Source of the DNA: Fistulifera solaris
Taxonomy: Eukaryota > Bacillariophyta > Bacillariophyceae > Naviculales > Stauroneidaceae
Assembly: GCA_030295235.1 (NCBI GenBank)
Contig: AP026123.1
Span: 1,488,001-1,552,000 of the forward strand
Reading direction: 5' to 3'
DNA length: 64,000 bases
Part shown: positions 11,821 to 18,504 of the stretch, piece by piece
Position numbering within the stretch: the first letter of the stretch is position 1
How the letters are laid out: each line of letters starts with the position of its first letter
Translations under genes and position numbers: made by a program
The notes under the pieces: generated by a model
Told to the model about the DNA's origin: nothing
Database searches by the model: none
The model's input: only the letters and a program-made list of their open reading frames with translations

Positions 11821-13439
11821 CCTGTTCTGTCGTTCGAAGTATGTCATTTGGCAACCCGACTAGCTTCTTTTGTTCGTAGTGTGAAGACTGGAAATGGGCA
11901 GGAACGTCGACTTATATCACTGTATTCACGGGAAAACATCAAAAACAACAAAAAGGCGTTGCGGGTGCGAGTGCTGCGTTGACGATGAGTCATTCGACTG
12001 TCCTTGGTCCGGCTTCTCGGATTTCCACAACGATTGTCAAGACTGCAATGCAATCTGGTGCTATCCAATCTTCCTTCGTTCTAAGAACCTCTCCCTCTAG
12101 AGAGTCTAGGGTCTACTCTATGTTGTTTTCACACCACCAGTAAAGGAGGAATGCTGGGGAGTGGAGAACCAGAAGAATCATCATCGCTCTCTACCTCTAC
12201 CGTCTTACCTGGTACGTACCCTGTATTGTGTCCTGGTAGGAAGTTTTTTCCTTGGTTTTTCATCATAGTCCATTTTTTCCGAAAAGCAGGCAGAGTTTCT
12301 GTATATTTTATTACAACCTGTCCGGAAACGACGATAATATTCTGCCTCGCCGTAGGCTCTACGTAGAAACTTGTACTGAGAGGCAGAATTTTAACGTCCT
12401 TTCCCCGCAATTTTCGGAACGAACACAGAAGTTCTACATGAAAAATGCTCCGTATGCATAATTTCTGAAAACTACACTGAATTTCTGAATGAGAATTATT
12501 ACGGAGTAGAGTATAATTCTCGTTTCCATTCTAGCGTCGCAGCTGCTTGTTGCTTTGATCATAGAATCATACATCATAGAGTCCGAATTTCGAAAAGGCT
12601 ACTAGTCCATTCCGCATCATTTCTGGAAGAAGACCCGTCCTCGTAAGCCTATTACCATGTAACCTTACAAGTATCCGTCCGTAGTGGTGACAAGCAGTCT
12701 CGACTCTTGACTTGATGATCAATACTACGGAGTAGCTATTACCTGTTACCTGTTAACCTATAGGTTTAAATTTTAAACTTGAGCCAGCTACTGATCGTGA
12801 AAGGCATTTTGTCCGGTTTGGTACAGGTGGGACGTTATGAAGTTTACAAATTACAAAAGACCTTGTCCATCAAGAAGAGAAGTCGAAATCGGACACGAGA
12901 CACGAGACACGAGACTTGCTAAATAATTGCCGCTTGCAAGCAATTAAGGACTTTGCCAATTTCACATGCGACACGCATCCTAAGATCAGATCCTCATGCA
13001 TTCGAATTCGCCCTTGTGTTGAGTTTTACTGCAGTTTCTCATTACAATGATAATGTTGGCGTCGAGACCCTATGCCACAGTCTATTGGTAGAGAGAATAA
13101 TATGCTCAGATCAGTAACCATGCTATGAAGCATTGAACGGAGGCAAGAGTTTGTAATGTTGCCATTCAGTCGATAAGAAAATAGATCCCGACCAGCTTCT
13201 CAACTTTCTAATTATTTCTGATACCCGGCTTTCATTCCGCTGAAGCGGCTAATAATAAAATCTCTTTATCAAATAATCACCTCATAAAGATCTTTTAGAA
13301 AAACCTGGAAGAAGCAACAGAATGATAGATTGCGGACAAATGCCAGTTGTACCAGGTACAGAAGGTTTCGAGCATCTCCGCTCCGGTATGAAAAAGTGGC
13401 TTTTGAACAAAAATAACGCGCAACGAATCATAGAACAAT
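11821..13439. other. Long gene-poor spacer
   Basis: No conserved reading frame was found in about 1.6 kb. It contains the palindromic element at 12331-12397 and two copies of the nonamer TACGGAGTA (12500 and 12726). Minus-strand frames at 12129-12410 and 13295-13537 are translations of the palindromic element and of the tRNA gene respectively, not proteins. Confidence 0.5.
12331..12397. repeat. Small palindromic element, copy 1
   Basis: About 67 bases flanked by inverted arms (left ATTCTGCCTC, right GAGGCAGAAT, with outer bases imperfectly paired), enclosing CGCCGTAGGCTCTACGTAG and AACTTGTACTGA. A near-identical copy lies 34 kb away at 46403-46469. The left arm here has diverged (ATAAT where copy 2 has TTAAAA). 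It could be a miniature inverted-repeat element or a structured RNA or DNA motif. Confidence 0.75.
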
Positions 13440-13443
13440 AAAA
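13440..13443 (-). terminator. Candidate Pol III terminator of permuted tRNA gene
   Basis: TTTT on the minus strand, eight bases after the end of the tRNA 5' half. In a permuted gene transcription must run past the 5' half before stopping, so this placement fits. Confidence 0.6.
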
Positions 13444-13445
13444 GA

Positions 13446-13545
13446 TTCAGACCGTAGTCAGGCGCCTTACCATTGGGCCAACGGGAATGTTCGACGATTT
13501 CCCGCCCGGGATTCGAACCCGGAATCTCCTGATACACTAACTGAA
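13446..13545 (-). other. Outer helix of a predicted bulge-helix-bulge in the permuted pre-tRNA
   Basis: The bases just before the 3' half (TTCAG at 13545-13541) are complementary to those just after the 5' half (CTGAA at 13450-13446); one more G-T pair extends the helix. This would hold the two ends of the precursor together next to the anticodon stem, giving the kind of substrate cut by tRNA splicing endonuclease. Only the complementarity is seen; the cleavage is inferred. Confidence 0.65.
13452..13533 (-). tRNA. Circularly permuted tRNA-Arg(ACG)
   Basis: On the minus strand the 3' half (13533-13498) comes first, then 10 bases (13497-13488), then the 5' half (13487-13452). Rejoined at positions 37/38 they make a complete 72-base cloverleaf. 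The acceptor stem is TTCCCGT with GCGGGAA (six Watson-Crick pairs and one G-T) and discriminator A. T8 is followed by a D arm with A14, G18 G19 and A21. The anticodon stem is CCTGA with TCAGG, the loop CTACGG plus A38, so the anticodon is ACG (read as inosine-CG, arginine). The variable loop is AGATT and the T arm CCGGG-TTCGAAT-CCCGG. Box A lies in the 5' half and a perfect box B (GGTTCGAATCC) in the 3' half. The break point is exactly where ordinary nuclear tRNA introns sit. No intact copy is present around it, so a simple scan would miss this gene. Confidence 0.9.
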
Positions 13546-13570
13546 CGCTGTCGATAACAGGAGCAATTGG

Positions 13571-13577
13571 TTATATA
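13571..13577 (-). promoter_or_regulatory. TATA-like box upstream of the permuted tRNA
   Basis: TATATAA on the minus strand, 38 bases upstream of the first tRNA base. An upstream TATA element would help place Pol III when the internal boxes A and B are in reversed order. Position supports the idea; function is untested. Confidence 0.4.
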
Positions 13578-13732
13578 AACACCACACTTGAGATCCTCTC
13601 TTGACTGAAATTTCAAGTAATGCGGTAGAGGGTAAGTGGATGGTACACTTTCTCCCAGTCATCCAGTACCGCACAAGTACGCGATGCGACAAATAATAAT
13701 TCTCTCATCGCCCTTCCGTCGACCCAAGTAAA

Positions 13733-14890: not shown

Positions 14891-15173
14891 ACGTCACTCG
14901 TTTTGAATTTTGAATACTCCGGTACTGTACCTGGTACAGTACATCTTTTATTTTTGGCATTCCATTCGACGAAAACGAAAAACTAGAAATCTCTTTCTTT
15001 TTCCGAAGCCCTCGCAACAACTCGCAACGAAGATACGAAAGACGACTGACGTTCCCAATTACTCCGTATTTCAACTTGCACACGCTGAGCTTCTTGTTCA
15101 TTCTCAGACACAATTATTCGATCATTGTTCAACTTGTGTTTAGCTAAATCTACAAAAGCCTTACAAGTGAATC
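14891..15173 (+). promoter_or_regulatory. Candidate promoter of UGP/PGM
   Basis: Contains ACGTCA at 14891, TGACGT at 15047 and a perfect odd palindrome at 14922-14942 (10-base arms GTACTGTACC and GGTACAGTAC around one T). TGACGT/ACGTCA is the core of the CO2/cAMP-responsive elements described in diatom carbonic-anhydrase promoters; use here is inferred. TACTCCGTA at 15060 recurs in other spacers of this window. Confidence 0.4.
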
Positions 15174-18100
15174 ATGGCGTCGTTTGCACCTACCAAGGTA
15201 CGTCATTTCGAGACGAATTCTCATTCGACGCGAACGAAGACACGGTAGCGAATCTCACAACATTCTTTTTCTTGAATCAGGCCAAAATGGAGGCCGAAGG
15301 CATCTCTCCTTCGGCTATTTCGGCTTTCGAATCGACTTTTAACTCGCTCGTATCAGGAAATACTGGTTTGATTCCCGAAGACACCATCTCACCGGCGCCG
15401 GACCTCGACAACGCCGAAGACTTCTCGAAAAGTATTACGGTCGATCCCGCCTTGCTCAAGGAAACCGTCGTACTCAAGCTCAATGGAGGTCTCGGTACCG
15501 GCATGGGTCTGGACAAGGCGAAATCGTTGCTCAAAGTCAAAGGCGACGATACTTTCTTGGACTTGACGGCCAAACAGGTCATGCAAATGCGCGAGGAATA
15601 CGGAATGAAGGTCAAGTTCATGCTCATGAACTCTTTTTCGACATCTCAAGATACTTTGGACTTTTTGAAAACCAAGTATCCGGGTCTGGCGTCCGAGGAA
15701 GGCCTCGAAATGATGCAAAACAAGGTCCCCAAATTGAATGCGGATACGCTCGAGGTACGTACGTTCGACATGAATCTCCGTCGTATACGTTTGACTCACA
15801 CTTCTCTATTCTTCTTCTCAGCCCGCCGTGTGTGAAACGGACCCCGACAACGAGTGGTGTCCTCCGGGTCATGGTGATTTGTATGCGGCCTTGGTCGGCT
15901 CTGGATGCTTGGACAGTTTGCTGGCCAGTGGCTTCAAGTACATGTTCGTGTCCAACTCGGACAACTTGGGGGCGGTCTTGGACTTGGCCATCTTGACCTA
16001 CTTTGCTCAAAAGGGTTCTTCGTTTATGATGGAGTGCTGTGAACGGACCGAAAACGACAAGAAGGGTGGCCATTTGGCCGTTCGCAAGGCGGATGGTCAG
16101 TTGGTGCTGCGCGAATCGGCCATGTGTGCCGACGAAGACGAAGAAGCCTTCCAGGACATTACCAAGCATCGATTTTTCAATACCAACAATCTGTGGATCC
16201 GCTTGGATATTTTGGAAGCAAATTATTGACAAGAACGGTGGCTTCATTCCGTTGCCGATGATTAAGAACAAGAAGACTGTCGACCCCAAAGATGATTCCT
16301 CGCAAGCGGTCTTTCAGTTGGAAACAGCCATGGGAGCTGCTATTGAATGCTTCGATGGCGCCACGGCCATTGTGGTGCCTCGTACACGTTTCGCGCCCGT
16401 GAAGAAATGCAGTGATTTGCTCCTTCTACGAAGTGATGCGTACACTTTGGTGGATCACAAGCCCGTTTTGAATCCGGCGTGTGGCGAAGCAGCTCCGATT
16501 ATCGACCTCGACAGCAAGGCGTACAAGCTAGTTGGTGCGCTCGAGGAAGCAACTGCGGGCGGCGTTCCGTCTTTGGTAAATTGCAAGCGTCTCAAAATCA
16601 AGGGAAAAGTTCGCATGTCGTCAAAAACGAAATTCATTGGTGACGTCGCCATCACCAACAGCAGCTCGGAGAGCAAATTCGTTCCCACGGGTGAGGTCAC
16701 CGGAAGTCACGACTTGACCGCCGCTGTCGGCATGGGTAAATTGTGCCCTACTATTGTCTCGACGGCGCCTATCGATGGACAAAAGCCGGGTACTTCCGGT
16801 CTTCGCAAGAAGGTCAAGGAATTCATGCAAGAGAATTACCTCGAAAATTTTGTCCAGTCGACGTTTGATGCTGTGAAAGCTAGTGGAACGGACGTTACCA
16901 AGGGATCTTTGGTCATTGGTGGAGATGGTCGCTACTTCAACGACCAAGCCATTCAGACGATCATCAAAATGGGTGTTGCGAACGGTGTCAAGCGCTTCTG
17001 GATCGGACAAGATGGTCTCTTGTCGACTCCTGCCGTTTCAGCTGTTATTCGAGAACGCGGACCGGGCTGGCAGTCGGCTTTCGGGGCATTTATTTTAACG
17101 GCCAGTCACAATCCCGGTGGACCAGACGAAGATTTCGGTATCAAGTACAACTGCGAGCACGGCCAGCCGGCACCGGAAAAGGTTACGGATGAAATTTATG
17201 CCAACACATGCACTATCAAGTCTTACAAGATTTGCAAGGACTTTCCTACAATCGATGTGTCCATTCCGGGTATCACCAATGTCAAGGCAGATGATGGAAG
17301 CAGCGAGGTCAATGTGGAAGTGATCAGCGCTACCGACAACCATGTTGAGTTGCTCAAATCGATCTTTGATTTTCCTGCGATCAAAGCGCTTCTCGACCGA
17401 AAGGACTTTACGATGGTGTACGATACCATGTACGGTGTGAACGGTCCATACGCAAAGAAGGTTTTCGTTGAAGAGCTTGGGCAGCCTGAAGAGATTTGCA
17501 TGAACGCTACTCCCAAGGATGACTTCAATGGTGGTCACGCCGACCCTAACCTCACCTACGCTAAGGAACTAGTGGCAAAGATGGGACTTGACCGCAACGG
17601 AATGAAAATTGATGTCCCTGCAGGAAGTGCGATTCCGGATTTTGGGGCTGCCGCTGATGGGGATGGCGACCGAAACATGATTCTGGGCAAGCAGTTTTTC
17701 GTCAGTCCTTCTGACTCGCTAGCTGTCATTGTCGCAAATGCTGATGCTATCCCATTCTTCCGCACTCAGGGTGGACTAAAAGGTGTCGCCCGTTCGATGC
17801 CTACTTCCGGGGCAGTTGACCTTGTTGCTAAAGATCTGAACTATAGTCTTTTCGAGACACCGACAGGTTGGAAATACTTTGGCAATCTGATGGATTCGAA
17901 GGAATTGTTTGGAGGCGAGGACTACACGCCGTTCATTTGCGGTGAAGAATCCTTCGGTACAGGATCGAATCACGTTCGTGAAAAGGACGGAATTTGGGCT
18001 GTTTTAGCATGGCTGCAGATTCTAGCGGTGGCCAATCCAGACGCCTCTCAACCACTAACTACAGTCGAGGATATCGTTACCGCTCATTGGCGAAAATATG

Positions 18101-18504
18101 GACGAAACTACTACTCCCGCTGGGATTTTGAGGGAGTTGATAAGGTCAAGGCGACTGCGATGATTGACAAGATGCGTTCGGATGCTGAAGCTAACACCGG
18201 AAAGACTGTCGGAAAGTACAAAATTGCCAAGGCAGACGACTTTACGTATGTTGATCCTGTTGATGGAAGTGTTTCGAAGAATCAAGGCATTCGATTCCTC
18301 ATGGAAGATGGATCTCGCATCATCTTCCGTTTGTCTGGCACAGCCGGTTCCGGTGCCACTGTTCGTATGTACATCGAGCAGTATGAACCGGAAAAGATCG
18401 ACATGGTTGCTTCCGAGGCGCTGAGTGATTTGATTCGTATCGCCTTGGACCTTTGCGACATTAAAGGGTTCGTCGGTACCGAGGAACCTACTGTCATTAC
18501 TTAA
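15174..18504 (+). CDS. UGP/PGM: Fused UDP-glucose pyrophosphorylase / phosphoglucomutase
   Basis: About 1,059 residues. A short first exon (15174-15197, MASFAPTK) and introns at 15198-15280 and 15755-15821 (both GTACGT...CAG) fit in phase. The N-terminal half is UGPase: LKLNGGLGTGMGLDKAKSLL binds nucleotide and TNNLWIRLDIL and FQLETAMGAAIECFDGA are conserved. The C-terminal half is PGM: IDGQKPGTSGLRKKV, the phosphoserine loop TASHNPGGPDEDFGIKYN, metal loop AADGDGDRNMI, sugar loop GEESFGTGSNHVREKDGIWA and phosphate-binding RLSGTAGSGA. Together they interconvert glucose-6-P, glucose-1-P and UDP-glucose, feeding chrysolaminarin and glycan synthesis. The fusion is known from diatoms and relatives. 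One extra G at 16214-16215 breaks the frame between DIL and KQIIDKNGG; removing it makes the coding length divisible by three. Confidence 0.96.

Follow-up and report, generated by a model that had tools for sequence, protein, structure and literature searches.

A probable permuted tRNA-Arg(ACG) gene, conserved between paired contigs, in the nuclear genome of a Fistulifera-like diatom

Introduction

In a conventional tRNA gene the 5' half lies upstream of the 3' half. The minus strand of one diatom locus has the reverse arrangement: from position 13533 down to 13452 of the 64,000-nucleotide stretch analysed here (the window), the 3' half of a tRNA-Arg(ACG), tRNA positions 38-73, is read ahead of the 5' half, positions 1-37. 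Is this a working gene with exchanged halves, a relic, a sequence kept for some other purpose, or an error of assembly? A review of permuted tRNA genes counts 34 in six unicellular algae and one archaeon; Arg(ACG) is missing from its table, and its available portion does not mention a diatom (Soma 2014, PMC3978253). The preliminary description of the locus knew of no report from a diatom, and the open-licence literature, covered mostly as titles and abstract openings and with subscription papers outside the scope, yielded none among the papers listed. The gene is therefore likely the first permuted tRNA gene to be described in a diatom.

Results

F. solaris is an allodiploid diatom. The genome comprises 51.7 Mb in 61 contigs, among them paired diverged contigs, and over the 8 kb compared the window's contig (C3) is collinear with contig C4, individual pieces being 69-91% identical. 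One window protein has five relatives, including FisN_17Lh214 from Fistulifera solaris (76% identity over 61% of the query) and a JGI protein (96% over 84%); the former bears out the original assignment to a diatom-type nuclear genome. Beside the tRNA gene, at 15125-18504 on the plus strand, adjoining frames carry UTP-glucose-1-phosphate uridylyltransferase (UGPase) and phosphoglucomutase domains and are likely a fusion gene. A foldback repeat with 31-nt arms, 84% complementary and 19 nt apart, occupies 12324-12404; it recurs at 91-98% identity in at least 37 other places in the genome and is probably a MITE-like element.

Reading of the letters on the minus strand upheld the half swap and the 10-base gap first proposed for this locus. 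The 3' half (13498-13533) is followed by an intervening sequence of 10 bases between discriminator A73 and position 1 (13488-13497), and then by the 5' half (13452-13487). ARAGORN identifies the rotated halves as a 72-nt tRNA-Arg(acg), while in the unrotated window neither ARAGORN nor Rfam at its gathering threshold reports a tRNA. Joining at 37/38 yields stems TTCCCGT/GCGGGAA, CCTGA/TCAGG (the anticodon stem, with 5 of 5 pairs) and CCGGG/CCCGG, together with the anticodon loop CTACGGA bearing anticodon ACG. The rejoined molecule has U8, A14, A15:U48, G18G19, A21, U33, TTC at 54-56, A58 and discriminator A73. A and B boxes are present in the gene, and CCA is absent from the encoded sequence. 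The cloverleaf had been called faultless; it is a normal one with the consensus bases, but that word is slightly too strong, as pair 7-66 is a U-G wobble and C13 and A22 of the D stem do not pair. The order of the halves on one strand, the 10-base spacer and the normal cloverleaf on rejoining are those of type II permuted genes. The proposed split of tRNA-Arg(ACG) at 37/38 thus gains support from the ARAGORN call on the rotated 72-mer, and from the same order in a homoeologous copy.

How often would chance produce such an object? Among 93 GTTCRA T-loop-like motifs on both window strands, just one yields a rotated tRNA, and that one is the permuted gene. In 100 dinucleotide shuffles of the window, 15 of 10,808 motifs did so, or approximately 0.15 per window, and because of this figure the cloverleaf alone is suggestive but short of conclusive by what is a loose test. 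The homoeolog described below, with 71 of 72 tRNA positions the same, lends the gene stronger support.

The place on C4 that is syntenic to the window carries a permuted gene with the same order of halves, and we take the two copies to be homoeologs. In the alignment of C3 with C4, 71 of 72 tRNA bases are the same (3' half 36/36, 5' half 35/36), as are 7 of 10 spacer bases, 11 of 13 columns of a leader arm preceding the 3' half, and all 12 bases of a trailer arm plus terminator following the 5' half. The neighbouring columns are only 53-75% identical, at 34/56 and 135/181 upstream and 77/144 and 272/453 downstream. Stretches of 72 columns outside the gene have on average 38 identical positions (n=850). 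The best of these, with 63 of 72, lies near 13620-13693 and overlaps the end of an unassigned 209-aa minus-strand open reading frame. The lone difference within the tRNA is at position 20, where C3 has U and C4 has C. Igloi (2022, PMC8975779), in the portion available, gives C20 and/or U20 for the diatom nuclear tRNA-Arg sequences at hand, A20 for organellar ones, and C and U for F. solaris. Since halves, arms and terminator are conserved and their neighbours far less so, the kept block comprises the tRNA and the parts that a permuted gene needs. At the level of sequence, a copy that retains 71 of 72 tRNA positions amid much less conserved surroundings is stronger evidence than the cloverleaf.

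A third permuted copy lies on C4 (L061, C4:1437278-1437444, plus strand), inverted, about 6 kb from the C4 homoeolog and with the same half order. Its 5' half matches at 35 of 36 positions (97%) and its 3' half at 85%, with four additional T-arm bases and an acceptor mismatch; it looks drifted, as a redundant copy would decay. These copies bear on the concern, raised at the outset, that the order of halves is a local assembly artefact, an ordinary gene put together with its halves reversed: this is very unlikely, verging on negligible, because the syntenic copy and the inverted third copy share the order amid differing flanking letters, and the conserved splice arms outside the halves would be out of place in an ordinary gene.

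Two candidate RNA polymerase III signals flank the gene. TATATAA, at 13571-13577 on the minus strand, starts 44 bases before the 3' half and is likely an upstream element; a TATA at −44 is also found in the C4 homoeolog. TTTT at 13440-13443, likely the terminator, is the same in the homoeolog and closes the conserved block. For Cyanidioschyzon merolae, the available part of the review describes permuted genes that have a TATA-like sequence no more than 50 bp upstream and are followed by a run of T residues (Soma 2014, PMC3978253), and both diatom copies share this pairing of an upstream TATA-like sequence with a downstream T run. Upstream of conventional nuclear tRNA genes in this genome (23 regions), a TATA, TTGTA or TATC starts at −36 to −28 in 13 cases, such a motif occurs only at other positions in 6, and 4 have none. 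The comparison is soft, as the same motif set also picks out TATC at −23 in the window gene and others at −50 and −42 in the homoeolog. The more distant TATA of the permuted gene would leave space for the leader arm.

The predicted splice arms lie on either side of the halves. The leader arm, GTTCAGTTAGTGT (13534-13546, minus strand), would pair in the predicted folds with the trailer arm, TCTGAATC (13444-13451, minus strand), and possibly with the anticodon loop: leader TTCAG would match trailer CTGAA, and leader UAG the CUA of the loop, with bulges flanking the cuts after G37 and before A38. Folding of a 111-nt window precursor closes all arms at −35.4 kcal/mol, a value reached by 25 of 200 shuffles (z −1.09). 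The C4 homoeolog adopts a near-cloverleaf fold over 110 nt, and a different fold is best over 111 nt. In the register of a bulge-helix-bulge the energies are −28.9 and −28.7 kcal/mol for window and homoeolog, against minima of −35.4 and −35.3; the bare cloverleaf is weaker than this register, at −26.6 and −26.8. At the 37/38 junction (hBH) the arms are present and conserved, the bulges have 4 bases instead of 3, the central helix is 3 pairs long, and the structure lies above the minimum in energy. The modelled splice structure would be a relaxed bulge-helix-bulge at best.

Anticodon-loop introns are served by the tRNA splicing endonuclease. Matches to PF01974, the splicing endonuclease family, are found on contigs C19 and C20, and a third, on C10, is borderline at 27.4, the cut-off being 27. 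tRNA-Tyr genes with introns of 18 and 19 bases lie on C1 and C2 (L070, L082); ARAGORN labels the second as Asn, although its sequence equals that of the first except in the intron. An exon-by-exon search for the RtcB ligase, which could miss a split gene, gave no match in the genome, its control being positive in 9 of 14 genomes. The search with PF09511 gave 0 matches and is uninformative, its control being silent as well.

Is there an ordinary gene that would make the permuted one dispensable? The rejoined sequence, used as a query against the whole genome, matches just the three permuted loci, and TGACTACGGATCA is absent from the genome. The pattern CTACGGAN{14,18}GGTTCGA has 3 matches (control 2), and ARAGORN finds no tRNA at any of them. 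CTACGGN{14,18}GGTTC has 47 matches, below the control's 153, the tRNA spacing being normal in 8 of them. Three of these 8 were inspected, as was the pair C3:613080 and C4:560197, and none of the five has an anticodon stem, just 1-2 of the 5 pairs being present. The 5'-half pattern ATGGN{9,13}TGACTACGG has 8 matches (control 4), namely the three permuted loci and five others; the one of these five that was inspected has no anticodon stem and is no tRNA. Such patterns could miss a tRNA-Arg(ACG) with different stem letters or an intron, and the RF00005 search, in which 63 of 1,908 candidates were scored, 56 of them on C57-C61 (taken as organellar), is no census of nuclear tRNAs. An intact tRNA-Arg(ACG) elsewhere, which would have told against the permuted gene, was thus sought by incomplete pattern and sequence searches of the genome, and none was found; for this reason the permuted gene may be the sole source of tRNA-Arg(ACG).

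Other permuted genes were sought as well. GGTTCGANTCC occurs in 204 places (control 34), and the 30 examined among the matches listed comprise 16 conventional tRNAs, 2 tRNA-Thr 3' fragments, the window gene and 11 that are none of these. A rotated scan of 96 loci responded at many of them to ordinary tRNA genes too; each of the six such loci inspected holds ordinary tRNA genes, some of them adjoining, and adjacency explains two of the patterns. An exact pattern spanning both halves matches neither viral nor prokaryote contigs (0 in each set). On C1, at about 1408-1450 of locus L067, a lookalike of a tRNA 5' part, TGGTGCAGTGGTAACACG, directly precedes a tRNA-Glu(TTC) and is not seen before its homoeolog (L080). 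On C2 (L078, C2:825017-825322) tandem repeats, each bearing just the tRNA 3' end, lie behind an intact tRNA-Thr(AGT), and partial duplication of this kind could be the raw material from which a permuted gene arises.

Discussion

We propose, with a probability of about 0.88, that the locus is a functional type II (37/38) permuted nuclear gene for a cytosolic tRNA-Arg(ACG) in a Fistulifera-like diatom, a reading in which we infer every RNA step. The reasons are that half order, cloverleaf, arms, terminator and TATA recur in two diverged copies, that the one tRNA difference, U20/C20, involves bases given for diatom nuclear tRNA-Arg, that the genome has endonuclease matches and intron-bearing tRNA-Tyr genes, and that the incomplete searches described above yielded no contiguous copy. 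Weighing against it are a precursor fold that does not stand out from its shuffles, a splice structure with enlarged bulges and an energy above the minimum, and the lack of an RtcB match in the exon-by-exon search. Two alternatives deserve weighing. The better of them, to which we give a slim chance, is a pseudogene: reversed tRNA fragments left by a partial tandem duplication, with expression lost. tRNA fragments do occur in the genome, as the tandem tRNA-Thr 3' ends behind an intact gene on C2 attest, and the third permuted copy is damaged. A pseudogene would, however, be free to drift, and between the homoeologs 71 of 72 tRNA bases, the arms and the terminator are kept while the flanks have drifted; nor did the incomplete searches bring to light an intact contiguous gene that would render the permuted one dispensable. 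Slimmer still is the chance that the sequence makes no tRNA and is kept as a TFIIIC-binding boundary element or a small-RNA source. The A and B boxes would suit such a role, as would the second conserved stretch upstream, but it would not lead one to expect acceptor and anticodon pairing across the swap, splice arms, a TTTT, or a position 20 limited to U and C.

For a functional permuted gene, the following pathway can be envisaged. Directed by the TATA box, RNA polymerase III would initiate ahead of the leader arm and terminate at TTTT. The linear precursor would fold with its tRNA halves paired, leader and trailer arms closing a relaxed bulge-helix-bulge at the anticodon loop, and the tRNA splicing endonuclease would cut after G37 and before A38. 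Ligation of the cut ends would give a circle of 82 nt. Standard steps of tRNA maturation would follow: RNase P and tRNase Z would excise the 10-base spacer from the circle, CCA would be added, and A34 would be edited to inosine.

A broader reading, which we favour by little more than even odds, is that the permuted genes are the sole source of tRNA-Arg(ICG) in both subgenomes, so that reading of CGU and CGC, and probably CGA, would need a circular RNA; that the permuted order is older than the divergence of the subgenomes, and tRNA-Arg(ACG) may generally be encoded in this way across the diatom group, a condition so far overlooked; and that the ligase is one other than RtcB. CGT, CGC and CGA each account for 12-13 per thousand codons in 11 long, uncurated window open reading frames (7,160 codons). 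A conventional tRNA-Arg(TCG), which might read CGA, is present on C23. Should this needed decoding tRNA have no source but the permuted gene, then an essential gene escapes standard tRNA annotation in such diatoms, and this alga would be a test case for a eukaryotic splicing endonuclease and ligase acting on a reversed substrate.

Very probably the gene belongs to the known type II kind, and what is new, as far as the open literature covered shows, is the lineage. Permuted tRNA genes have so far been described in red and green algae, in nucleomorphs of green origin and in one archaeon. The nucleus of a diatom, as the site of a conserved example, would extend the phenomenon to the stramenopiles and bears on the number of its origins. 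As far as the available part of the review describes them, the type II genes of prasinophytes, C. merolae and the Bigelowiella natans nucleomorph share with the diatom gene the half swap, the 37/38 break and the absence of CCA; their spacers are likewise short, at 1-74 bases against 10 here, and those of C. merolae share the TATA-like sequence and T run (PMC3978253). Unlike the reviewed genes, the present one resides in a diatom nucleus, specifies Arg(ACG) and has a relaxed splice motif. Swapped halves in an algal genome are also described, in the accessible parts of the reports, for permuted tRNA genes from Auxenochlorella (PMC12636532) and from the nucleomorph of Amorphochlora amoebiformis (PMC4494063); unlike the diatom gene, these belong to the green lineage or to a green-derived nucleomorph. 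Closest to hand are the intron-bearing tRNA-Tyr genes of the same genome, which are likewise interrupted in the anticodon loop, but in which the 5' half comes first and a circular intermediate is unneeded.
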